DNA from: Phycisphaerales bacterium | Lineage (GTDB): Bacteria; Planctomycetota; Phycisphaerae; Phycisphaerales; SM1A02 | Reading direction: 5' to 3' | Assembly (NCBI GenBank): GCA_014238125.1 | Contig: JABABS010000011.1 | Location: forward strand, 1 to 64,000 | DNA: 64,000 nucleotides | Shown here: in pieces, positions 42,347 through 59,813 of the stretch | Position numbering within the stretch: the stretch's first letter is position 1 | Layout of the letters: every line of letters begins with the position of its first letter | Made by a program: the position numbers and the translations under genes | Notes under the pieces: model-generated | The model's input: the letters and a program-made list of their open reading frames with translations, nothing else | Databases searched by the model: none | What the model was told of the DNA's origin: nothing

Positions 42347-43105
42347 TCAGTGTGACTTAGCCATCTCTGTTTCAGAATTAGTGACGAGAGTACCGATAGA
42401 CTCGCCGGCAATGACACGGCAGATATTGCCATGTGTTTTAAAGTTGAAAACGATAACTGGTAGGTCGTGTTCCATACACATGGAAAGGGCTGTGAGATCC
42501 ATTACGCCAAGTTTCCGATTGATTGCATCGGAAAAAGTAAGTTTGTCAAAGCGCGTGGCATTCTCATCTAAATTTGGATCTTCGTTATATACGCCATCGA
42601 CCTTTGTCGCTTTAAGTAAAATATCAGCACCAAGTTCAATTGCTCTCAGCGATGCGCACGTGTCTGTTGTAAAGAATGGATTTCCTGTTCCTGCCGCAAG
42701 AATCAGAACTCGTCCTTTTTCAAAGTGTCGCAACGCTCTTGCACGAATAAATGGTTCCGCTACTGATTCGATATCTAGTGCAGAGAGGACTCTTGCAGGT
42801 TGCCCGTGTTTTTCTATTGCCTCTTTTAACGCTAGTGCATTGATTACAGTCCCGAGCATGCCCATGTAATCAGCTGTAGCTTGTGGGATTCCAACACGAG
42901 TTGAAAGTTCAGCACCGCGGATCATATTGCCCCCGCCAACGACAACTGCAAGTTGGGTCCCGTTTTGTACTGCCTCGGCAATTTGGCTAGCGATAATATT
43001 CAGTTCATCAGGGTCAATTCCAAGGACTCCTTGGGTTGAAAAACTTTCACCGCTAATTTTAAGAATGGCTCGTCTGTATGCTGGCTTTGACATTGTCGCT
43101 CTCAT
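42347..43105 (-). CDS. pyrH: UMP kinase
   Basis: RAILKISGESFSTQGVLGIDPDELNIIASQIAEAVQNGTQLAVVVGGGNMIRG...KATKVDGVYNEDPN...SMCMEHDLPVIVFNF. Confidence 0.96.
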   Translation of the reverse strand: MRATMSKPAYRRAILKISGESFSTQGVLGIDPDELNIIASQIAEAVQNGTQLAVVVGGGNMIRGAELSTRVGIPQATADYMGMLGTVINALALKEAIEKHGQPARVLSALDIESVAEPFIRARALRHFEKGRVLILAAGTGNPFFTTDTCASLRAIELGADILLKATKVDGVYNEDPNLDENATRFDKLTFSDAINRKLGVMDLTALSMCMEHDLPVIVFNFKTHGNICRVIAGESIGTLVTNSETEMAKSH

Positions 43106-43207
43106 GGTTGGTGTTCACAGAAAAAAGAAATGAGATAAATACAGTTCATCAGTAGAATACCAAACTTATGGTAGTCTAAACAGTTCAGAGGAGCAATAAT
43201 AGACCAC

Positions 43208-44215
43208 ATGGTTCAAGGACAACATGAAAGACATTCGCCTCAGGCTGATCATTCAGATCCTGCCCCATCTGGGTACGTATCAACAGTTTGGAATTTACGT
43301 TGCGATATACAGGATCGGTGGAAACGAAGTGTCATTATTCTTCTAGTTTTAGGTGCAATTTTATCTATTATTATTCATATCCTCATAGGAGCCATATTAA
43401 GTGGTTACGGTAAAAGCCCTGGTGTGAGAAAAGTCAATTCGGATTCTGCGATTGTAGAATTCGCTGTATCGGATTCTGAATCACTCACGGAGTCACCCAA
43501 GGCTACTTCACTAGAAGAATCTGATTCTGCGCCAGCTGCTCTTGATAGTCCACTCACGGCTGAATCTGTACTAGAAGCAACATCATCTTCAGCTTCAGAA
43601 TTACTTGCCAATCAATCACAAGTGCCAACACTTGGAGGTGCTGGCGGCGGAAATCTTGGTTCTGGAATGGGCGGCTCTGGTGGCGCAAGTGGCGGAACAT
43701 CTTTCTTTGGCATTTCTTCACAGGGCTCTCGCTTTTGTTACATCATGGATATTTCAGCTTCTATGCTTCAAGGCACGCGGCTCGATGCTGCGATTACAGA
43801 ACTTGTTTCATCTTTAAGAAAGCTACCTAATTTTTCTCAGTTTTATGTTCTGTTTTATTCAACTGATTTTACTGAGCCTCCATCTCAACATGGATGGAAC
43901 ACAGCGAGGCGCTCAACCTTAACTAGAATCATTAATGAAATTCATCGAGTACAGGCGCATGGTGGAACATTGCCTGCGCCGGCATTTAACAAAGCCATGG
44001 AACTTACACCATTGCCCGATGTAATTTTCTTTCTCACTGATGGACAAATTCCGAAATCATTTATAGATGAATTACGAAATATGCTCCCAAGTGGAAAGCG
44101 AATTGTCGTACACTCAGTTGCATTTGGAAGCGGTGCAGACATTAGTCAAATGAAAGAAATAGCAAAACTAACCGGTGGGCAATATAAAGAAGTCAAAGTG
44201 CAGGCTTCCCCATGA
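43208..44215 (+). CDS. Membrane-anchored VWA-domain protein
   Basis: Single TM (SVIILLVLGAILSIIIHILIGAIL), acidic/Ser-rich plus Gly-rich linker (GGAGGGNLGSGMGGSGGASGG), then VWA domain with MIDAS DISAS and FFLTDG. Confidence 0.85.
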   Translation: MVQGQHERHSPQADHSDPAPSGYVSTVWNLRCDIQDRWKRSVIILLVLGAILSIIIHILIGAILSGYGKSPGVRKVNSDSAIVEFAVSDSESLTESPKATSLEESDSAPAALDSPLTAESVLEATSSSASELLANQSQVPTLGGAGGGNLGSGMGGSGGASGGTSFFGISSQGSRFCYIMDISASMLQGTRLDAAITELVSSLRKLPNFSQFYVLFYSTDFTEPPSQHGWNTARRSTLTRIINEIHRVQAHGGTLPAPAFNKAMELTPLPDVIFFLTDGQIPKSFIDELRNMLPSGKRIVVHSVAFGSGADISQMKEIAKLTGGQYKEVKVQASP

Positions 44216-45180
44216 AGTGCACCCTGGTTCTAATTCTTGCATGCTTGGGAACAAGGGCACTTGCTGAAACTGTCTTGTTCCGAGACGGTGCAACTCCAGT
44301 CAACTGCACTATTGTGAGTTGGAGTACAGAGGGATTGCGAATATCTAAAGATGAAATTTCAACTCAAGAAGTAATACCGTGGTATCTCATTTCAAAAGTC
44401 TCATCTGAAGAAATTGGTGTTATGTTTCAAAAATATCTCACGCGCGGCGAAATGTTGTGGCGTGCAAAGCTAAGACTTCTCAGAGGAGATATTGCATTGG
44501 CAGCGCCCCTATTTAGGGAAGTTTTTATGCAACTCAAAAATAGTGAAGGCTTGGATGCTTATCTTGCAGCGGAAGGTTTGTTGCGTTGTAACTTAGCAAC
44601 TGGGAATTTGAATGAATCTATTGCACCATGGCTCGTTGTCGTTGATCATGTTCAATCTGGCAGGACTTCACAACTAGAAGCATTGGCGCCTATTATTGAT
44701 CCGAGTACTTTACTTTGCTCACATCTTCCGCCAGTTTGGAATGCATCTTTTGTTGACAGATCCATCAATAATTTAGAACTACGGAGTGATGTCGCACAAT
44801 CATTCTATGCTATTATTTTGTCTCCTAATCTACCTACTAAACAAACACTGGATGGTCCTTCATTTTTGCAGCATATTCTTCTTTTAAAAGATGCCGAACA
44901 AAATGGTCTATCAGAATTAAAAAAATTACAACCTTGGCAACAGTGCTGGCTATTGTTTGCTGAGGCTTCTGGCTTACAAAAAAAAGGTCATGAAAACGAA
45001 GCGATGTTAAAGTTTGCGGAAGTAGTAGCAACGTACGAGACAACACAACCATGGCTTGCTGGCGCATCTCTAGCTGCTCTTTTAGAATCATTTGATCGCG
45101 CTGGGGACACAAAAATTGTAAATAATATTCAAAATGAATTTTCTAGAGTTTTACCAAATCACCCATTACGGAAGGAATAA
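44212..45180 (+). CDS. Exported protein of unknown function, operon partner of VWA/TolQR genes
   Basis: Signal peptide MKCTLVLILACLGTRALAE; overlaps the upstream VWA gene by 4 nt; helical TPR-like content. Confidence 0.65.
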   Translation: MKCTLVLILACLGTRALAETVLFRDGATPVNCTIVSWSTEGLRISKDEISTQEVIPWYLISKVSSEEIGVMFQKYLTRGEMLWRAKLRLLRGDIALAAPLFREVFMQLKNSEGLDAYLAAEGLLRCNLATGNLNESIAPWLVVVDHVQSGRTSQLEALAPIIDPSTLLCSHLPPVWNASFVDRSINNLELRSDVAQSFYAIILSPNLPTKQTLDGPSFLQHILLLKDAEQNGLSELKKLQPWQQCWLLFAEASGLQKKGHENEAMLKFAEVVATYETTQPWLAGASLAALLESFDRAGDTKIVNNIQNEFSRVLPNHPLRKE

Positions 45181-45182
45181 AA

Positions 45183-45875
45183 ATGGTTGTATTGAATGTT
45201 TTATATTTCATTGGCCAAGTTTCGAAGAAGCCTGACACAACATCGTATTTAGACACTCTTTGGAAGGGCGGCCCAGTCGGTTATATCATTATGGCATTGA
45301 GCATTGTCGCACTTTCTCTTATTGTGATGCACTTTGTTCAAATCAGGCGGAAGAAATTGTTACCAGCTGAGCAACTCAGCGTACTTGAGTCATATTTAGC
45401 CGGTGGTCATGTACAGGAAGCGCTTGAGTATTGTGTTGATCCCGTCAATGATTCCTTTTTAACACGTATCCTCTCAGGAGGACTCCTTCGGTATCAACGC
45501 TCAGCATTTGGACCGTTTGAATTAAAGAACGCGCTCGAAGAAGCTGGTGAGGATCAATCAGCTCGTTTGTATCGCTCAACTGATGCACTGGGTGTGATTG
45601 GAACGATTGCCCCCTTGCTTGGACTTCTCGGTACTGTTCTTGGTATGGTTGGGGCATTTGAGACAATTGGCAAAACTTCTTCAAGCAATAATGAAATGCT
45701 TGCGACGAACATAAGCGAAGCGTTGGTTACAACTTTGCTAGGCCTCATTCTTGCAATCCCATGCGTCGCATTATTTAGTTTTTTCAGAAATCGAATCGAT
45801 GGTTTGAGTTCGGAAACAGCTGGGGAAATTGAACGTCTTGTTTTGCACCTTGAGGAATCAAGAAACGAAGACTAA
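45183..45875 (+). CDS. MotA/TolQ/ExbB-family proton channel
   Basis: GVIGTIAPLLGLLGTVLGMVGAFETIG...NISEALVTTLLGLILAIPCVALFSFFRNRID. Confidence 0.93.
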   Translation: MVVLNVLYFIGQVSKKPDTTSYLDTLWKGGPVGYIIMALSIVALSLIVMHFVQIRRKKLLPAEQLSVLESYLAGGHVQEALEYCVDPVNDSFLTRILSGGLLRYQRSAFGPFELKNALEEAGEDQSARLYRSTDALGVIGTIAPLLGLLGTVLGMVGAFETIGKTSSSNNEMLATNISEALVTTLLGLILAIPCVALFSFFRNRIDGLSSETAGEIERLVLHLEESRNED

Positions 45876-46297
45876 TGCAATTTAGTAGGAAAAAATCTGA
45901 AGATACAGATTCAATTGTTGAAATGACTCCTATGATCGACATTGTTTTTTTGTTAATTATATTTTTTATGGTTGCCGCACAATTTGCTCAGCAAGCACGG
46001 TTAGAGATGCAACTTCCACAAGAAAGAGGGGAATCCCTTAAAGATTCACAGAGCACTGGCCTTGTGATTAATATTAGAAAAGATGGGGCAATTATTTTAG
46101 ATGTTGATTCGCCGCCAATTACAATTGATGCACTAGATGAAAAAATTAAATTGGCGATTTCAAGTAAAACTGCGCCATGGGAAAGTCTACTTATTCGCGC
46201 CGATCAAAATGCTTCAAGCACTACGCTCAATGAAGTCTTCAGACTTTTAAATAAACATGGTCTTTCTGCGACAAGACTTGCGACTGAGGTGCCTTGA
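45875..46297 (+). CDS. ExbD/TolR-family protein (first copy)
   Basis: VEMTPMIDIVFLLIIFFMVAAQF: TM with conserved Asp; stop/start overlap with upstream ExbB. Confidence 0.93.
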   Translation: MQFSRKKSEDTDSIVEMTPMIDIVFLLIIFFMVAAQFAQQARLEMQLPQERGESLKDSQSTGLVINIRKDGAIILDVDSPPITIDALDEKIKLAISSKTAPWESLLIRADQNASSTTLNEVFRLLNKHGLSATRLATEVP

Positions 46298-46716
46298 TGC
46301 GATTTTCGTCGAGCCAGAAAAAACATAAGTTGAATCGCACTGCAGTTAATTTATCGAGCATGATTGATGTAACGTTTCTGCTTCTTGTTTACTTTATTGT
46401 TACGACTGTACTCGCAACACCGGAGGATTTACTTTCGCCGGCACTTAAAGTTGAGGAAGGAACATCACTTTCTATTGATGAATTAGATCCCCAAATTATT
46501 GAAATTCGATTACAAGATGGAAAGCCTTTGTACGTTATAGGTTCACACCTTTGTCCTGACCGAGAAACTCTCGCTGAAGTCCTTGCATCTTTGCCAATTG
46601 AGCCAGGACTTATTCTCCGTGTCAGTAATGGAGTTCCTGTTGGTTTTGCTGTTGCTGCGATACAGGTTGCCCGTGATGCCAACTTTGAGAAGGTGACGTA
46701 TGTTCCTGTACAGTAA
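46294..46716 (+). CDS. ExbD/TolR-family protein (second copy)
   Basis: VNLSSMIDVTFLLLVYFIVTTVLATPEDLLSPAL: TM with conserved Asp; overlaps upstream gene. Confidence 0.92.
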   Translation: MMRFSSSQKKHKLNRTAVNLSSMIDVTFLLLVYFIVTTVLATPEDLLSPALKVEEGTSLSIDELDPQIIEIRLQDGKPLYVIGSHLCPDRETLAEVLASLPIEPGLILRVSNGVPVGFAVAAIQVARDANFEKVTYVPVQ

Positions 46717-49210
46717 CACGTTTATTTGCTTAAAAAGAATGTATTTCGCCTTATGTTTTACAGGTTTGCTTGCAATTCCAGTTCAAGTTAAGGCTGACGA
46801 TCCAACTTCCAATTGGTTAAGCCGTATGGAATGCAATGAGTTGTTATCGTTGCATTTAGAAAACCGACTTGATATTGGTTCCGCAAAAGAACAATCTCGA
46901 GCAGCCCAAGCACTCGCTGATCTCTATGCATCGATGCTAGCAACAGCCGACGATGAGACAAGAAGTAATTTACTCGCAAACGCGAAAGCTCTTCTAACGA
47001 GAAAGCCACATTTAACAACCACAGATTTAAAATTGCAACTTCTTCGTGGAACTTATTTGTCCTCTGAACTAGTAATAGAACAATATCGTTTTAGAGTTGT
47101 TGACTTAGAATCACACGTAGTGGCCATTTCACAATTAAGAGAGGTCTATGACGGATTTGCTGATTTGCGTCCTGCACTCATGAAGGGAGTTCGTTCCTCT
47201 AGCGGTAAATCAAATTTACTTAAAGCAAGAAGTGCTGAGTTGTGTACTTCCTTACTCGCATGGTCGGGCTATTACCTAGCAAGGCATGATCATGATCCTG
47301 AAATGGCTATTCGATCAGCTGTTCTGTTTGCTGAATTACTAGGCTCTTCAAGTGCAAGTTTGCAGGAAATCTCTACGGATTTAAGTATCCATGATTACGG
47401 CGCAAGAGCGATTCTAGGCATTGGTTTATGCAAGGAAATAGCAAATGATCCTGCAGGTTCTGAGCCTTGGCTTGAATTATTAGAAATGCCAGATGTTTGG
47501 TCAGAAGTCAGGAAACAAATCCCGCTTTGGAGATTACATATTCTCATTGACTCAAAGAAATGGGGCGAGGTTTTATCTTTGCTAGATGAAGAAAATACAA
47601 GTAGTGGCCTGAGAGATTTTTGGCTACTTTTAATTGCTTCACGGGCTTTAGAAGATGCTTCTAATATCAATGCGCAAATTGTTTCAGCAACTGCAATAGA
47701 GAAGTTAGTCCAATTGGGTCAGCTGAATATGGTGAGTAGATTAGTCGATCGCTTCGGGCAACAAATTCTTAACGAAACTGATTTTGTAGGAAAGTATATT
47801 CTTGCAGATTTGCAGTTTCAACAGTTACGTGTATCTTGGAATGAAGTATTCCCAAGTGATAATCCAGAAATTCAAAGTACGTTTTCTATTGTTTCAAATT
47901 TACTTCTTGCGGCGATTTCATCGAGTGATGCGAATGAATTTCCTTTTGCAAAATCAAACTGCCAATTCCTGCTTGCGCACTCACAATATCAAGCTACTAA
48001 TTTTAACGATGCTGCTATTACTTTTTATGGACTAGCTGTAGGTCCGAGGATGGAAGAAGCACTTTGGATGTCAATTGTATGTTTGAATTATATTAAGGCA
48101 AGGACATACGAACAAAACGAAATGAGAGATCTTGCAATAGAGGAATATATTTCTGCTTTTCCTTCTTCTGAAAGAGCTCGCCAATTGATCGTCCATCGAT
48201 CTTTTGATGAGAATCAAGATAACCGCAGTATAAATGAATTGCTTTCAATTCCGTACGACGATCCAATTTACGACAAGGCTAGGCGTAGAGCAGAAGATTT
48301 GTTGTATATGGCCTGGAGAAATGCATCACTAAAAGAAAAGGTTGCTGCTGGAAATCAATATTTAGAAATAGCTAGGCCCTTGTTATTTGTAGATGCTAGC
48401 TCTTCTGATGTAGATATCAACAAAACCATAAAAAGGTCAAGGCGAATTCTTGATGTCGCACTCCACAATGATGTCCGTCGTGTTCTTGCGGCAGAAAATG
48501 TATTTAAGATAATTGAAATATATGAAATACAAGAGCAAGAAGTACGAAATGAGTTTGCGTATAGACGATTACAGTTGCACCTGCTCAAGGATGAATTGGA
48601 AAACGCGATCACTGTTGCAATGGCACTGTATGGTAAGTTCCCCGAGTCAACATGGAATGAACATGCTGCAGTTTCAATAATAAACGCGATGCGTGGAGTA
48701 ACACTGAGTCAGAAAAATGATTTTAGAGAGCGATATTTTGATCTAGTGTTCGCGTATTTAAACACTCGCAGCGATGAACAACTCTCTTCTTCTTCACTTT
48801 TTTCACTCGGAATTGAAGCTGTAGAGGATGGTTTTATCTTAGTAAAAGAACGCAATTCGCATGCTTTTACTGTGAAAGTTTTGCAGTTAGTGCGTAGATT
48901 ATTAACTTTATATCCTAAGAATCGTTCCTTGCTGCGTTTTGCTGCAAATCTTGAAGAGGATGCTGGCGATATCCAAATTTCTTTAGAGCATTGGAAAAGA
49001 TTGAGTGACGGACTGCCCAGCGGCACAGTGGAATGGTTTGAAGCTAGGTACAGATTTATTTTATTACTTGTTGAAACTAATATAACACTTGCTGACAAAC
49101 TATTCGCACAACATCTTGCTCTCTATCCTGAATATGCAATATCGCCTTTAGATATTCAATTTAGAGAATTGGAACGTCTTATTTCACGAACTCTTTTGGA
49201 GAATGATTAG
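46700..49210 (+). CDS. Large exported helical/TPR-like protein of unknown function
   Basis: 836 aa; signal-like YFALCFTGLLAIPVQVKAD; helical repeat composition; overlaps upstream exbD-like gene. Confidence 0.6.
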   Translation: MFLYSNTFICLKRMYFALCFTGLLAIPVQVKADDPTSNWLSRMECNELLSLHLENRLDIGSAKEQSRAAQALADLYASMLATADDETRSNLLANAKALLTRKPHLTTTDLKLQLLRGTYLSSELVIEQYRFRVVDLESHVVAISQLREVYDGFADLRPALMKGVRSSSGKSNLLKARSAELCTSLLAWSGYYLARHDHDPEMAIRSAVLFAELLGSSSASLQEISTDLSIHDYGARAILGIGLCKEIANDPAGSEPWLELLEMPDVWSEVRKQIPLWRLHILIDSKKWGEVLSLLDEENTSSGLRDFWLLLIASRALEDASNINAQIVSATAIEKLVQLGQLNMVSRLVDRFGQQILNETDFVGKYILADLQFQQLRVSWNEVFPSDNPEIQSTFSIVSNLLLAAISSSDANEFPFAKSNCQFLLAHSQYQATNFNDAAITFYGLAVGPRMEEALWMSIVCLNYIKARTYEQNEMRDLAIEEYISAFPSSERARQLIVHRSFDENQDNRSINELLSIPYDDPIYDKARRRAEDLLYMAWRNASLKEKVAAGNQYLEIARPLLFVDASSSDVDINKTIKRSRRILDVALHNDVRRVLAAENVFKIIEIYEIQEQEVRNEFAYRRLQLHLLKDELENAITVAMALYGKFPESTWNEHAAVSIINAMRGVTLSQKNDFRERYFDLVFAYLNTRSDEQLSSSSLFSLGIEAVEDGFILVKERNSHAFTVKVLQLVRRLLTLYPKNRSLLRFAANLEEDAGDIQISLEHWKRLSDGLPSGTVEWFEARYRFILLLVETNITLADKLFAQHLALYPEYAISPLDIQFRELERLISRTLLEND

Positions 49211-49212
49211 CA

Positions 49213-51963
49213 ATGGAAATAGATCGTGCTATTTTTCTAATCCTTGGAATTCGTAACACTCAAACTCCCGAACAGTTACTTGGAATTCCAAAATGGAATG
49301 GAAGCCCAGCTTCACTTGAATCTGCAATTAGAACAAGAGTTGCACAAATATTATCCCATCCGATGAAGCATTCCGAAGAAGCAAAACTCGTTCGGCAAGC
49401 TATCAAGGAAGCGGGCAAACTTCTTCGCAATCAGTGTAAGACTTATACAAAAGAATTCCAACCTAAAAAAGAGCACTCACACGAAATGACTAAGCTTGAT
49501 CGCTCAATTATTGCTGTTTTAGTTTCTGAAGGTGGCTGGAACCGAAAAAGTAGAGCACGTCTTGTTGCAGTCGCTGCTGCTTATGGATTAACCGTTGGAG
49601 GTCTACTTCGCATTCTTACTGCGCTTGCTGATTCTTCAAGAACTGGCAGCGGTCCTCTTTCGCAACAAGAAAGAAGCGAAAATATGCCAGATAGATCTTG
49701 GGCTACGTTGCCTATCTCTGAAAATAAACAGAGTGTTGTAGATGATTTAATGGATGAAATTGCTAATCGGTTTTTACCAGAACTAAAAGAATACTCAACA
49801 GTTGGAACTATTAAATTATCTGCTCTTTTTGGTTTGCTCACAATTCTTGCGATTGTCCTTGGATTACTCCTTATCAACAGAGCTGATGAATTTGCTCTCA
49901 AAGTCGTTGATGCCGGTGCAGTTCCAGCAGTAACAATTGCTTCTGAAACATCAAAACCGGTGAATATGTCATTTCACAACCCTAGTTTTGAGTTATACCC
50001 ATCTTTTGATGAAGTAATTTTCACTGAAGAAATAGGATCTCTTGTAGACAACGCTCCTCAATTGCCAAATTTACTACGCAATATTTATCAGCAAATTGGC
50101 AGCGCTGCTGCTCAAGGAATGTTTGTTGAGAATAAGTTATTAGAGGACTGGAATAATTCCATTCATGTTATTTCCTCAATTTGGCCATTTCTAGATACAC
50201 CACTTCAAGAAGAAATAGGCAAATTGATTCAAGAATGTGTTTCTATTTCTCCCCAAGTAGAAGGTCTCTCAGCAAAACTCCTCTTGTCATTGGACATTGC
50301 AGTTAAAACAAACACGTTGGATGCTAATGCTTTTAAAAAACCTTGGGCAGTCGGAGAACTGTCCCGCTTGGCATGTTCAGATTCCTTAATTTCGTCATTA
50401 ACAGCATTAGTTAAAAAAACCGCATACTCATATCCCCTTGATTGTGATGTCTATGAAACAAGACGGCAAGTCATTCGACTTATTGCAATAGATCTAATGA
50501 GAATGACGGAACTTGAAACTCACAGTTTACTTCTCTGGGAGCAATGGTTGGCTATGGTTGATAGAGAGGATAGTCTGGAAGCTCGAACTGCTTTAAAATT
50601 AGATGTAATACAAATTATTCTACAAAACTCAGTAGATTTGACTAGAAATAGTAATACCAGAAAAGTACTTGGCCGCCTAGTTCAAGAAATAGATTGGGTT
50701 CGTAGTGATCAAGCTCGTGTATTACTGTTAGATATCTACTTAGATAAAACTATTACAACTGTTGACGTTTGGGCTATCTCAAATATGCTTGTTGATTTAC
50801 ATGCAGTGCCTTGGTTTTTATCAAAACATGCAATACAACTCGATGATAATTTTGTTAAAAGAGAACAAGTTGCTACTGAACTCCATGGATTATGGCCTAC
50901 AATTGAAACGCCAACAACGGCGGTACATTCACTTGTGTTGCCTGCTGGATACGACCCCGCACTTGTTGATGTATGGATTGAACTTTCCCTCTTCAGTGAA
51001 GACATGACACATCCACCCGCTGAACGTTTTTTGCATGCAAGAAAGTTAAACGAAATAGCTGCCTCGCTTTGGGTTGGCAGACCAAGCCGGGCATGGGAAT
51101 TGATTGACAACCTTGATCAAACAACTTTTTACGAGGAACTCGCTGATCTATCACGTGGTGGACGCAGTAAAGGAGAGTTGGTGAGGCGTTTTCCAAATAC
51201 TAATCGTAATGAAGATGAGATGTTAGAACTTCTTAATTTTGTACGGAGTGCCCAGTATGACAATTTGCATCCTAGAGATGCAGCGATCGTCGCAAGAACA
51301 GCGCTTTTTTATCGAGATGCAGGTATTAGGCAAGAAGCGGTGTTACTCATTTGTGAACAATTTTCAAACAGCGCAGTGGTTGCTGAAGCAATTGTAAATG
51401 TTTTTACACCGAATGCCAAAACTGAACAAATAGAAGCTTTAGTTGCATTTTTAACAGATGATATTTTGCCGCCTAGACATTATCAAACTTGGATTACTGC
51501 GGCAAGAAGAGCTCTTATCCAACACGCCCTTACTGCGGGAAAAACGAATTTAGTTGGTCTTAATGAAGCTGCAGCGTCCGCAAGTGTTTCAGCATTGGGG
51601 GAAGCGCTTCTAGTGGATCCAAGCCGACTGCGACCAACTCATGAAGTAGGTGTGGCTGATTCTTATCATCTTCTTCTTGAATCATGGCGAATGAAATTAG
51701 GTGCAAGTTACACTCGTACAATGCATCACACGGCTGGAGTCTTAGAGCTTCAACTGCAACAACAATTAGAATACTTGCGTTTGATCCAGCAACTTGAATT
51801 AGTGTGGACAGGGGAACTATCACACATTGACGACATTTTTCCCATCAGCAAGGCTACAACACTTCTCGAACAAATCAGTCAAGCTGAATTTGCAAGTTTG
51901 CAAGTATGGAAACGCATGCTTACACTTGCGAATAAAGAAGCTGCAGGAGACTCCCAACAATGA
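49213..51963 (+). CDS. Large membrane protein of unknown function; N-terminal cytoplasmic J-domain-like helical region, one TM, large C-terminal domain
   Basis: 916 aa; N-terminus LGIPKWNGSPASLESAIRTRVAQILSHPMKHSEEAKLVRQAIKEAGKLL; TM LSALFGLLTILAIVLGLLLI; 2 nt after upstream stop. Confidence 0.6.
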   Translation: MEIDRAIFLILGIRNTQTPEQLLGIPKWNGSPASLESAIRTRVAQILSHPMKHSEEAKLVRQAIKEAGKLLRNQCKTYTKEFQPKKEHSHEMTKLDRSIIAVLVSEGGWNRKSRARLVAVAAAYGLTVGGLLRILTALADSSRTGSGPLSQQERSENMPDRSWATLPISENKQSVVDDLMDEIANRFLPELKEYSTVGTIKLSALFGLLTILAIVLGLLLINRADEFALKVVDAGAVPAVTIASETSKPVNMSFHNPSFELYPSFDEVIFTEEIGSLVDNAPQLPNLLRNIYQQIGSAAAQGMFVENKLLEDWNNSIHVISSIWPFLDTPLQEEIGKLIQECVSISPQVEGLSAKLLLSLDIAVKTNTLDANAFKKPWAVGELSRLACSDSLISSLTALVKKTAYSYPLDCDVYETRRQVIRLIAIDLMRMTELETHSLLLWEQWLAMVDREDSLEARTALKLDVIQIILQNSVDLTRNSNTRKVLGRLVQEIDWVRSDQARVLLLDIYLDKTITTVDVWAISNMLVDLHAVPWFLSKHAIQLDDNFVKREQVATELHGLWPTIETPTTAVHSLVLPAGYDPALVDVWIELSLFSEDMTHPPAERFLHARKLNEIAASLWVGRPSRAWELIDNLDQTTFYEELADLSRGGRSKGELVRRFPNTNRNEDEMLELLNFVRSAQYDNLHPRDAAIVARTALFYRDAGIRQEAVLLICEQFSNSAVVAEAIVNVFTPNAKTEQIEALVAFLTDDILPPRHYQTWITAARRALIQHALTAGKTNLVGLNEAAASASVSALGEALLVDPSRLRPTHEVGVADSYHLLLESWRMKLGASYTRTMHHTAGVLELQLQQQLEYLRLIQQLELVWTGELSHIDDIFPISKATTLLEQISQAEFASLQVWKRMLTLANKEAAGDSQQ

Positions 51964-52661
51964 TCAATTATTCATTTTTATGTGTAATCACACTCTTTTG
52001 TTTAACTTCGTATGATCCTGCAACACCAACTCTTGATGGTACTGATGGATTGGCCTACATTGAAATGGCGGAAGATATTCTTGCTTCTGGTAAAAGTGAG
52101 CGTGGTATCGCTTTTGCTAGAAAATGCTACGTACTCTCTGCAATAGTGGATCCAGAATTGAAGAGGTCCGCCATACTTGGCTTGATTGAAATTGATAATA
52201 ATGAACAACGCTCAGCGCAATTGTTAGCATCCCTTCCTTCTGGCAAATTACTTTTGGGTGAAGTCGTTGTCCACGTAGATGCGGTAAGACCAATTGCTAC
52301 ACCCAAGGCAGTTATCTCCGCTTGTAAAGAAGTGCAAAATCTGAGAATTTTAGATAAAATACAATTAACTGAAAGAGACGATAAGCGTATTGAGTTATTG
52401 CGGTTTGCTTCATTATCACTGCCAAGTACACTTCGGAAAGTACTACTAGAAGGCGGAAAAGTATCGCGAAACAAGCATGTTGTTAGTGATTCTCTAAAGG
52501 CAGAGTTGAAATTACTCGGAGGAACAACGCAGTGGTCAGCAGCGGTTCTCGTCGAGGGAAATATACCCCTAAATGTTTCGGGAACAGTTGACTTGGCAGC
52601 GTTGATGGGTATAGACGCTTCAACATCTATTTTTGAGAACGGTAAATGGCGTACGCCTTAG
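51960..52661 (+). CDS. Exported hypothetical protein, last gene of the VWA/TolQR operon
   Basis: Signal-like MINYSFLCVITLFCLTSYD; 4-nt overlap with upstream gene. Confidence 0.6.
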   Translation: MINYSFLCVITLFCLTSYDPATPTLDGTDGLAYIEMAEDILASGKSERGIAFARKCYVLSAIVDPELKRSAILGLIEIDNNEQRSAQLLASLPSGKLLLGEVVVHVDAVRPIATPKAVISACKEVQNLRILDKIQLTERDDKRIELLRFASLSLPSTLRKVLLEGGKVSRNKHVVSDSLKAELKLLGGTTQWSAAVLVEGNIPLNVSGTVDLAALMGIDASTSIFENGKWRTP

Positions 52662-55670: not shown

Positions 55671-57311
55671 TTATTGTACTTGTTGGAGCAAAGAATGAAA
55701 ACCAAGATCGAAAGATTCATACGTACTTCTTGATCCATCGGGCCAATAAACGTCAATGTCCTTTATTTGCTTTTGGTTGCCTAATCCAATGTGAACTCGA
55801 GGGTCATTTGCCGCCATATAACTCCAAGAGGACTGAGCAGCAAAAGATATTCGGTTTTCACCAACTGTTGCAGTTACAAGGGCACCAATGGCAGGCTTAT
55901 TATGGGCGTCTCGGAGTGCGAGGGTAATAAAATTACCTTTATTTTCTGTAGTATTAATCAGTAGATATGCAGGCGCATCACGATTAATTACTAGAACATC
56001 TACAAAACCATCATTATTAACATCACCAAAAACAGCGGCTCTGCTCGTGTGAACTAAATTGGGATCCATCGCGCCCTCTAATAGCTCCCAACCACCAACT
56101 TGCCCGCGTAGAAGATAATTTTCCTCAGCATATGGATCGGCAGTCCGCGGGGTACCTATTTCTTGAACAAGACCATTTGCTTCAAATAAATCTAACTTGC
56201 CATCGTTGTTAAAATCGACCCAGCCCAAACCAAAACGGGTGGCATGTCTGGTGCTTGTTCTGATTCCATGTGAGGCAGTTACGTCAGTGAAAAAGTTACC
56301 ATCGTTGCGATGTAATGAATCACTTTCTCCCGTGATGTTACAAACAAGAATATCTAAATCACCATCGAAGTCAAAATCGGCACTGGTTAAACCCATTCCT
56401 GCTTTAGGTTGCCCCTCATCATCAAGGGCGCATCCACGCATGGACGCAACATCGGTAAAAGTCCAATTCCCATTATTCATCCAAAGCTGATCTGCCATCC
56501 CATCATTGGCAACAAATATATCAATGAGTCCATCACCGGTGTAATCATTGCACAGAACACCGAGCCCAGTACCCAAACGAGTGCCAATGCCTGCTTTCTC
56601 TGATAATTCAGTAAATGTTCCATCGCCATTGTTTCTATAGAGAAGATCTCTTGCAGGAGCCATATAATTAGTTGGTGAACAATAAGCCAATTTGCCCCTT
56701 GCATTAAAACAATCTAAATCTAAACCATCAGACCACACCAAATAATTAGTCGCGTAAAGATCAAGATCGCCATCCTTATCGAAGTCCGCAAAGGAAGTAC
56801 TCGCACCCCAACCTGAATCGCCAACTCCTGCTTGATCTGTAACATCTTCGAATGTCCCGTCTCCATTGTTTTGAAGTAATGCATTGTTGCCAACATTTGT
56901 AATATAGATGTCTACAAATGAATCATTGTTGTAGTCACCAATAGCAACCCCCATGCCATACCCCGTGTTTCCTGTATTGCTTTGTGCGGTTACATCGACA
57001 AAATTCCCGTCATCATTTCGAAAAAGCACATTGGACTCAGTTTTTGGAGAACCGAGGTGTCCTCCTTGGATAAAATACAAATCAAGATCGCCATCATTGT
57101 CATAGTCAAGCATTGCAGCTCCGCCACCAATTATTTCTGGCATATTAAATTTGCCAGTATCTCCACTAATCCACGTAAAATTTATGCCCCTTGATTGTGC
57201 TTCATCAACTAGCCATGGCTTTTTTATTTCTACCTCTGGCTGCACTTGAGGCTTTGTGTTTGAATCGCATCCAATAAGCAAAAGTGAAATACAAGTTAAT
57301 CGTTTCATCAT
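55671..57311 (-). CDS. CRTAC1-type protein: FG-GAP/VCBS repeats with ASPIC/UnbV C-terminus, lipoprotein-like
   Basis: Lipobox [60 protein letters not shown]/UnbV tail [26 protein letters not shown]. Confidence 0.92.
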
Positions 57312-58669
57312 TTCACGCCTTGTTTAGTGAGAAAGTTTGCTGCTCTTACAAGGTTCGGATCATTAGGAAACCGGGAAAGTGCATTGTTCAAAACTTGTTT
57401 AGCCTCCGAAGTTTGCCCATTGTTAAAAAGAGCAATTACAAGTCCGCCAATGGCAAGGGTTCCATCTGGAGAAATGCGCAATGCAAAATTAAATTGCTCG
57501 ATAGCTTTATCGCTTTTACCAAGATCAAGATATGCCAAACCGAGCATCTCACGATCATTTGGGTCGTTAGATCCTATAGAAATTGCTCGTTCAAAATACG
57601 TTGCTGCTTCATGTACCTTTCTAGTTTGAAACGCAATGTTTCCTGCAAGTGCTTGTGCTCTTGCATTTGCGGGTTCTAGTTCGATTGCCTTTTGAACATA
57701 TTGAGAGGCTAGCTCAAGTTCATTTTTATGTAAAAGAAGAAGTGCCATATTCATTTGCGAAGTTGCGTGGTTTGGGTTCCATCTGATTGATGCAGTGCAC
57801 GTTGTGTACGCATTATCAATTTGACCAAGTTGCATTTGTACGGTTGCTAAGTTTGTAAGAACGGCGGCATTTCTAGGGTTAGTTCTTGCTAATATTTGCA
57901 GATCGCCTAATGCTCCTACAATGTCGCCATCGTCAAGTTTTGCAATTGCCCGTGTAATAGATGCAGCAAAGCCTCTTTGATAAGTGGTCATTTCTAGTAA
58001 CCAAGGGTCGTCCCATTTAGGGGGACCCTTAACTATTTCTTGGAGTAGAGGCGCTGCTTTTTCGAAGTCTCCTGCCCTCTGATACGAAGTTCCTAAAAGA
58101 TAACTTAAGTAGGGATGATTTCCACCACGGTCTCTAATTTCTTCAAGAATCTGCACTGCTTGGCTAGGTTTATTTTGTTGTAACCAAGCCCTTGCAAGTC
58201 CAACCATCGCGGCAACTGCAGTTTTATCAATTTCGAGTGCTTTTTTAAAATGCAATTCTGCTTCTTCAATTTTTCCAAGATCAATCAACCAAAACCCAGA
58301 TCTCCAATACGCAGGGGCGTAGTTTTCATACTGAGAACAACTCTCAAGAGCTTGTTTATATTCCCCAATTGTTGCCAAGGTAATTGCGAGCCAATAGTTT
58401 GTCTTCGTTGGAGTGTTTGGAAGTTTAGCAGCAGCTTGATACGAAAGGGCAGCCTCTTCATAGAGACCGTGCGCTTGAAGGTAGAGTCCAAGGGTTGTCA
58501 AATCTTGCGAAGATTGAGATGTTTCTAATTTTTTAACCGCATCGGTAATAGCAATGCCCGCTTCTTGGGTGAGTCTAGTGAAATCAATCTCAGGGATATG
58601 TACTTCCTTTGAAGATTTCTCACATCCAAAATGAAGTAAAACAAAAAGTGTAAAAAATAACCAGCGCAT
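57308..58669 (-). CDS. TPR-repeat lipoprotein
   Basis: Start at MRWLFFTLFVLLHFGCEKS (lipobox); multiple TPRs (ALEIDKTAVAAMVGLARAWLQQNKPSQAVQILEEI, AIELEPANARAQALAGNIAFQTRKVHEAATYFERAISI). Confidence 0.88.
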   Translation of the reverse strand: MRWLFFTLFVLLHFGCEKSSKEVHIPEIDFTRLTQEAGIAITDAVKKLETSQSSQDLTTLGLYLQAHGLYEEAALSYQAAAKLPNTPTKTNYWLAITLATIGEYKQALESCSQYENYAPAYWRSGFWLIDLGKIEEAELHFKKALEIDKTAVAAMVGLARAWLQQNKPSQAVQILEEIRDRGGNHPYLSYLLGTSYQRAGDFEKAAPLLQEIVKGPPKWDDPWLLEMTTYQRGFAASITRAIAKLDDGDIVGALGDLQILARTNPRNAAVLTNLATVQMQLGQIDNAYTTCTASIRWNPNHATSQMNMALLLLHKNELELASQYVQKAIELEPANARAQALAGNIAFQTRKVHEAATYFERAISIGSNDPNDREMLGLAYLDLGKSDKAIEQFNFALRISPDGTLAIGGLVIALFNNGQTSEAKQVLNNALSRFPNDPNLVRAANFLTKQGVK

Positions 58670-58673
58670 ATAG

Positions 58674-59813
58674 TTATTGTAGAGTAGTTGTAGAAATTGG
58701 TTCACCGCATTCGGGACACAGTTTTTTATCTGTTCCGCTAAGGTCATATTCACACGCTCTGCAGTTTGGGGACTCAAATAGTACCTTGAAATGTAAATTG
58801 CAAGTAGGGCAAGTACTTTTTCCTTGTTGAAGAATAATTTTATCTTCACATCTTGGACAAATAGCGTGCAAAGGAACCGAACTTTGTACCACGTACATAC
58901 TCATCGTTAATACTTGAGTTATAAAAACAGCAAGTACTGAAGTTCCGCCAAGAATTGATGAAGAAATTGCAAACTGGAACAGGATGCCAGATTCATTACC
59001 CGTAAGATCAGTCCACGCATATGCAAAACAGAATGCTAGTGCAAGGGAGGCTATTGTAGTTGCCGCAACTTCTGATTTCCTAATTGCGTACGCTTCTCTC
59101 CTTAGATTCAAAAGGTACCAAAGCGAGATGAAACATGGAATCCAACCAATAATAAAGATTGCTGCTAAGGGTATTGAATTTTCTTTCCAATCGTTAACTG
59201 TTACTCCATACCACTGCCAAATAACACAGGTAATTGTTAATAAGATTAGCGCTGGAACTGATTTGGGCCACCGCAGGAGCAGCAAGACAGAAACTGGGGA
59301 ACACCACGCAATGGGAATTGCAATTGCTTCAATGTAATTATAGGTACCAATTGCTCCTCTCCAAATATCAAAAATCCAAAGAACAATTAGTAATGTCCAA
59401 CAGAACATCAGAAAATAACCAGAAAGTTTCCATTGTTTATTTGTAATTAATCTAGCGCCAATGGTGAGGGGAATGCCGCAAAAAAATACAACAACTGAAG
59501 TTAGTGCCAAATGGCCAATCGCCTTATTACTAACAAGCGCAATTTCATCTAGCCAAATAGTGAAATAAATCAGAGTCAAAACAATGCAGATGATGAGTCC
59601 AATCGCTGCTCCAAACGGACGAGTCTTTGGATTTTCTAGTCCTTTTATAGCAATAAGCATAAAACCAGCACTTATACCAGTTGCAATGGCAGTGCCTAGT
59701 AACCGTCCAAGGATGCTAGAGTTTGTAGGGGCAAAAACAGCAATAATACCCGTCAGCGAAGCAAATGCAAGAGAGTAATAAAGCACGCGGATCGCGACTA
59801 ACCGATAATTCAT
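58674..59813 (-). CDS. Polytopic membrane protein with C-terminal zinc-ribbon pair
   Basis: Many TM segments; C-terminus CPRCEDKIILQQGKSTCPTCNLHF...NCRACEYDLSGTDKKLCPECGEPIS. Confidence 0.75.
   Translation of the reverse strand: MNYRLVAIRVLYYSLAFASLTGIIAVFAPTNSSILGRLLGTAIATGISAGFMLIAIKGLENPKTRPFGAAIGLIICIVLTLIYFTIWLDEIALVSNKAIGHLALTSVVVFFCGIPLTIGARLITNKQWKLSGYFLMFCWTLLIVLWIFDIWRGAIGTYNYIEAIAIPIAWCSPVSVLLLLRWPKSVPALILLTITCVIWQWYGVTVNDWKENSIPLAAIFIIGWIPCFISLWYLLNLRREAYAIRKSEVAATTIASLALAFCFAYAWTDLTGNESGILFQFAISSSILGGTSVLAVFITQVLTMSMYVVQSSVPLHAICPRCEDKIILQQGKSTCPTCNLHFKVLFESPNCRACEYDLSGTDKKLCPECGEPISTTTLQ

Follow-up and report, generated by a model that had tools for sequence, protein, structure and literature searches.

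Described transducers and the layout of the locus

To our knowledge, motors of the ExbBD, TolQR and MotAB type have been assigned only a small number of tasks. Among the described systems with which the present locus can be compared, the nearest are the vWA transducers reported from Planctomycetes (Mol Biol Evol 2025; PMC12204202), which are encoded beside a tolQ gene, a pair of unlike tolR genes and a gene for a TPR protein, and which were described without an assigned function. These proteins combine a transmembrane (TM) helix bearing Ser and His, a linker of about 100 residues and a C-terminal VWA domain, the Ser/His (SHLS) motif being the one that TonB and TolA use for binding to their motors (PMC12204202). 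In PVC bacteria the vWA gene frequently comes after those for the TPR, TolQ and TolR proteins, an order that is not a defining trait (PMC12204202). A similar composition has been described in Myxococcus, where AglR resembles TolQ, AglQ and AglS both resemble TolR, and the Glt set includes TPR proteins (PMC3169522).

The locus considered here lies in a window of 64,000 nucleotides (the whole stretch of DNA that was analysed), taken from a 2.07-Mb draft assembly that is 96% complete with 5.9% contamination and that belongs to an order which we take to be Phycisphaerales. Eight genes occupy positions 43208-52661, all on the + strand, with overlaps of 4 nt or tiny gaps between neighbours, and a check of the open reading frames agreed to the base with the extent given in a preliminary description of the window. 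The first gene (43208..44215) encodes a VWA protein of 335 aa (Pfam VWA_3, 3e-10) and is followed by the gene for P322 (44212..45180; 322 aa), a protein predicted to be exported, with a small N-terminal domain preceding TPR-like helices. The motor is encoded next, as an ExbB/TolQ channel (45183..45875; 230 aa; Pfam MotA_ExbB, 3e-29) in which the Thr residues of the proton path are present, and two ExbD/TolR proteins of 140 aa each: ExbD1 (45875..46297; ExbD, 5e-25), with the membrane residue Asp22 in TPMID, and ExbD2 (46294..46716; TTG start; ExbD, 3e-13), with membrane Asp25 in SSMID. The last three genes encode P836 (46700..49210; 836 aa), a TPR alpha-solenoid with predicted export, P916 (49213..51963; 916 aa), a single-pass inner-membrane protein, and P233 (51960..52661; 233 aa), which is also predicted to be exported and has a fold without assignment. 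No significant Pfam or NCBIfam family was detected for P322, P836, P916 or P233 of the window. The genes for ExbD2 and P836 overlap by 17 nt (46700..46716, +), an overlap of 17 or 20 nt being found in most relatives across the order, which suggests translational coupling; the median intergenic gap in the relatives' operons is -4 nt.

Upstream of the operon, pyrH and frr are encoded divergently, with dnaX, recR and rpoN beyond them, while a small protein with a weak likeness to DUF3788 and a response regulator are encoded downstream. The divergent pair of pyrH and operon (43105-43208) occurs throughout the order and was not seen in f63, a family of another class (family codes are arbitrary labels of the search set). 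Elsewhere in the window (55671-58849, - strand), an ASPIC/UnbV FG-GAP protein is encoded beside a large TPR protein, an arrangement conserved in the same family; apart from a weak TPR similarity to P836, these proteins are unrelated to those of the operon.

When compared to the published vWA transducers (PMC12204202), the locus shares the Ser/His TM helix, the linker and the C-terminal VWA domain, as well as the adjoining tolQ, two different tolR genes and TPR gene. It differs in that every complete locus found here begins with VWA, whereas the usual PVC order places it downstream, and in that two TPR proteins are encoded, together with the 916-aa single-pass protein and the 233-aa exported protein. 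To judge from its sequence, the operon belongs, in an enlarged form, to the force-transducer class that was described in 2025. The system had been presented in the preliminary description as undescribed, which does not hold for the combination of VWA, tolQ, two tolR and TPR genes (PMC12204202) but stands for the 916- and 233-aa parts and for the order-wide eight-gene form with its 322- and 836-aa TPR proteins, of which no earlier description was found; PMC12204202 was likewise found to make no mention of these two parts, of a motor-less form or of component fusions.

A second cluster in the same genome (L120, G000:C26:1766-5999), located behind a DoxX-like gene, resembles the operon in encoding a VWA protein with S-x3-H, ExbB, two ExbD proteins and then a large helical protein, here of 572 aa. 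Unlike the operon, it has no genes for the 322-, 916- and 233-aa proteins, and its ExbB is placed elsewhere in the ExbB tree; L120 looks like the smaller published kind. A cluster resembling L120 is also present in a genome of the same genus, G006 (L132).

The probable VWA transducer and its proton motor

The VWA protein comprises a short cytoplasmic N-terminus, one TM helix ending near residue 64, a low-complexity linker of about 110 aa and a C-terminal VWA domain, the VWA_3 match extending over residues 179-327. A positive-inside bias at the TM helix was seen in 28 of 30 cases. Within this helix, S53-I-I-I-H57 (codons at 43364..43378, +) forms an S-x3-H motif of the kind by which TonB and TolA dock on their motors. 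The mean column identity in an alignment of 29 VWA orthologues is 27%, and the few invariant columns include S53 and H57 together with all residues of an intact MIDAS (D181-x-S183-x-S185, T254 and D278); a Leu at +11 is common and the last Ser of SHLS is not conserved. The S-x3-H motif has also been detected in ten VWA proteins of motor-less operons and in the VWA paralogues that were read. The docking helix and the intact MIDAS indicate that the VWA protein is probably a force transducer of the TonB/TolA type, and it fits the published vWA-transducer class (PMC12204202) in its predicted architecture. An absence of TonB and TolA from the cluster had been emphasised in the preliminary description, a statement that has to be revised given that the VWA protein itself bears their docking helix; the accompanying proposal of an envelope machine driven by the proton motive force (PMF), with VWA as its energised effector, gains support.

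The ExbB protein was matched to ExbB and TolQ of solved motors, and the alignment of the window ExbB with the E. coli protein spans both Thr-bearing helices, with the conserved Thr positions present. In the ExbB tree, whose deep forks are weakly supported, the ExbB proteins encoded in the operons, both in the order and in f63, are separate from the own-genome paralogue. Both ExbD proteins keep their TM Asp, as had been noticed earlier, and D22 and D25 are retained throughout their respective orthologues in two distinct sequence contexts, which makes an ExbD1-ExbD2 heterodimer inside an ExbB pentamer plausible. A relation to the Zorya defence system was considered and rejected, given that ExbD1 matches ZorB only weakly (2e-4) and ZorA, ZorC and ZorD are absent.

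Motor and docking helix are both shared with the Ton system, from which the operon differs by having a VWA domain in place of TonB_C and two ExbD proteins. The TonB-like helix would suit a function in active uptake, in which VWA, like TonB, would be the arm that opens a gate in the outer membrane. Nonetheless, searches of draft assemblies with one Pfam model for each domain gave no match to TonB_C in the window genome, which has three ExbB genes, and no TonB-receptor Plug domain in this genome or in four congeners, while a TonB system and the operon occur together in three other genomes (G021, G298 and G229). The plug-less congeners and the TonB-bearing carriers indicate that the operon does not encode a TonB system and is more than a replacement for one at TonB receptors. 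Uptake through TonB receptors, one of the processes considered in the preliminary description, is unlikely in the window organism because neither Plug nor TonB_C was found in its genome, and active uptake of this type as the task of the operon is regarded as quite unlikely.

A different task is suggested by the AglRQS-Glt machinery of Myxococcus, which likewise has one TolQ-like and two TolR-like proteins, periplasmic TPR proteins and the involvement of a VWA protein. By analogy, the operon could encode a surface adhesion or gliding motor that drives a VWA adhesin and TPR complexes spanning the envelope; the precedent for a VWA adhesin has been discussed, and gliding proposed, in PMC12204202. 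However, the VWA protein here has a TonB-like helix as its inner-membrane anchor, whereas CglB is an outer-membrane lipoprotein, and no outer-membrane barrel, lipobox or other recognised outer-membrane protein was seen among the operon products. A motor for adhesion or gliding is accordingly considered unlikely.

Conservation of the gene set and departure of the motor

Profiles of the relatives, run over 40 loci, revealed 24 further complete operons in the order, each with all eight genes collinear and on one strand. Contig ends truncate 13 more loci, whose remaining genes are in order, and three loci are exceptions. In f63, all eight genes are found in the same order at four loci with different flanks. 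The P836 gene was detected (E <= 1e-20) in 147 of the 201 genomes of the order, and a VWA protein of the operon type or its paralogue in 192; strong VWA matches are present even in several small genomes in which P836 was scored as absent, and in G303 the operon is visible with diverged parts. VWA and P836 lie at most 6 kb apart on one contig in 135 of the 137 genomes of the order for which coordinates of both were listed, and are split between contigs in the other two. The linkage of the large proteins to the VWA and exbBD genes in relatives, on which the preliminary description had made its proposal depend, is thus conserved. Members of the P916 family in a phylum-wide sample occur chiefly in the own order, with weak matches elsewhere, and the closest named relative is a Planctomycetota MAG (72% identity over P916). 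No P836 or P916 was found in the families f5 and f6 of the order, nor any trace of the eight-gene operon in G006, a 97% complete genome of the same genus.

Smaller relatives of the gene set occur in f63 (L140, with the order VWA-TPR-ExbB-ExbD-ExbD-TPR) and in another order of the class (L114, with VWA-ExbB-ExbD-ExbD-TPR and then a gene for a single-pass protein of 786 aa). In a genome of f30 (G210), a VWA-TPR-ExbB-ExbD-ExbD cluster has a gene for an LspA-like lipoprotein signal peptidase inside it (L134:4333-8880).

In 14 genomes, VWA and P836 are separated by only 1.1-1.5 kb, and no ExbB or ExbD genes were found in any of these loci (L064, L069 and L150-L161). Where they read cleanly, the genes for VWA, P322, P836, P916 and P233 are still adjacent. 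The absence of the motor genes from these operons indicates that the motor is separable, and the mechanical module probably outlives its linked motor and borrows another. One genome (G036) holds a detached exbB-exbD-exbD set whose ExbB groups with an ExbB of the operon type; another (G054) has two separate sets of the paralogous type, with no VWA gene alongside. A stand-alone exbB-exbD-exbD set in the latter genome (L123:8457-12515, on G054:C4) lies directly upstream of apparent genes for a LolC/E-type permease and a LolD-type ATPase, a hint that motors of this kind may be connected with the trafficking of lipoproteins.

Two component fusions have also been detected. P916 and P233 are joined in one frame of 1418 aa at L055, and P322 and P836 in one frame at L069; in each case the downstream part begins past its signal region, and no hydrophobic helix is found at the junction.

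The motor and the large proteins might instead be separate neighbours without a common function, held together by regional conservation of gene order, since the dnaX-recR-rpoN and frr-pyrH flanks are also conserved within the own family and the motor genes are able to leave the operon. The same eight-gene order with other flanks in another class argues that general conservation of gene order is not the whole cause of the linkage, and the fusions and the persistent adjacency of the remaining genes once the motor has gone point in the same direction. Such an association is considered very unlikely. A set kept together across the whole order very likely represents one machine.

Probable periplasmic partners and a possible role in the envelope

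Signal-like hydrophobic stretches occur at the N-termini of P836, P322 and P233, and one strong TM segment is present in P916 near residue 203 (about 203-221), as seen by hydropathy and inspection; the preliminary assignment of three exported proteins and one single-TM protein is borne out by these features. In P916, an N-terminal domain of about 200 aa precedes the TM segment, which is followed by a helical domain of about 690 aa. The positive-inside bias places the N-domain in the cytoplasm in 26 orthologues against 6, so that the larger domain would be periplasmic. Considering that the downstream signal peptide is lost in both fusions, P322, P836 and P233 would lie entirely in the periplasm, together with the C-terminal domain of P916, and these parts may well be tied to one another there.

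Structure prediction with AF2, for which only the window and L001 sequences served as input, gave a usable model solely for the C-terminal half of P836, an alpha-solenoid with pLDDT of about 80; that of P916 was unusable (mean pLDDT 40). The folds matched by the P836 model are of a generic solenoid kind, at TM-scores near 0.2; one of them is a chain of the periplasmic scaffold in the flagellar motor of Campylobacter, and these matches are not counted as evidence. A profile search of the P916 family against the PDB gave no match. A DnaJ-like N-domain in this family is a lead only, suggested by a sub-threshold Pfam match of a possible distant homologue (E 0.019) and by a weak profile match with a probability of 33%. 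The P233 proteins of f4 (L056, L061, L062 and L067) contain a Cys-rich insertion in which several CxxC pairs recall a zinc finger of the DnaJ type; the window P233 has no such insertion.

From gene content, synteny, motifs, fusions and distribution, all of which are read directly from the sequence, we infer complex formation, force transmission, a target and a Tol-like role. With a probability of about 70%, the eight genes encode one PMF-driven trans-envelope machine, in which VWA is the force arm, the periplasmic proteins form a scaffold and the work is Tol-like; we are fairly sure of the mechanism class. ExbB and the pair of different ExbD proteins would make up an inner-membrane proton motor of the TolQR type, and the S-x3-H helix of VWA would dock on the outside of this motor, as in TonB and TolA. 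The flexible linker would then carry force across the periplasm to the VWA domain, which may grip its target through the MIDAS metal ion. P322, P836 and P233 would constitute a scaffold in the periplasm, which P916, with its N-domain facing the cytoplasm, would link to the inner membrane. What the VWA domain first acts on, or is guided by, is most likely this scaffold. The object of the work is most likely the outer membrane or the wall, and a Tol-like coupling of the envelope is the leading guess for the cellular task.

A TolQ/TolR-type motor, an inner-membrane transducer and a periplasmic TPR protein (CpoB/YbgF in Tol-Pal) are common to the operon and Tol-Pal, whereas TolB, Pal and the C-terminal domain of TolA are not encoded in the operon. 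In Planctomycetes, the Tol-Pal set has been reported to be largely reduced (PMC8871954) and FtsZ to be absent (PMC5147048). A more specific form of Tol-like coupling can tentatively be proposed, in which the machine replaces Tol-Pal, pulling the outer membrane to the wall at the division site and keeping the envelope tight in planctomycetes without TolB. No TolB_N was found in nine genomes, including that of the window, while the same search was positive in E. coli, Caulobacter and a Bacteroides; this absence is based on a single Pfam model and, for the window genome, on a draft assembly. Two OmpA-domain proteins of the window genome, encoded on contig C55 beside unrelated genes and unlinked to the operon, are possible Pal-like anchors, and the operon is kept in genomes of about 2 Mb, beside housekeeping genes. 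On the other hand, no Pal-, TolB- or peptidoglycan-binding domain is present in the operon, and its large parts were not found in f5 and f6. The main text of a study on the essential genes of Planctopirus (PMC10632474) makes no mention of Tol, ExbB or von Willebrand.

The operon brings out families of 836-, 916- and 233-aa proteins for which the window sequences gave no Pfam match, and it offers residues for direct tests of mechanism, namely S53, H57 and the MIDAS residue D181 in VWA, and D22 and D25 in the ExbD proteins. The parting of the mechanical module from the motor genes constitutes a natural experiment on motor sharing. It is a bolder and rather doubtful idea that the whole order runs envelope constriction and integrity by this machine instead of Tol-Pal, its proton motor pulling on the periplasmic TPR scaffold by way of a metal-dependent VWA grip, with the single-pass protein reporting load to the cytoplasm. 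Taken as the PMF-driven machine favoured here, the operon would represent a different type of transducer, strongly conserved and with defined parts, in a phylum for which a reduced Tol-Pal and the lack of FtsZ have been reported.
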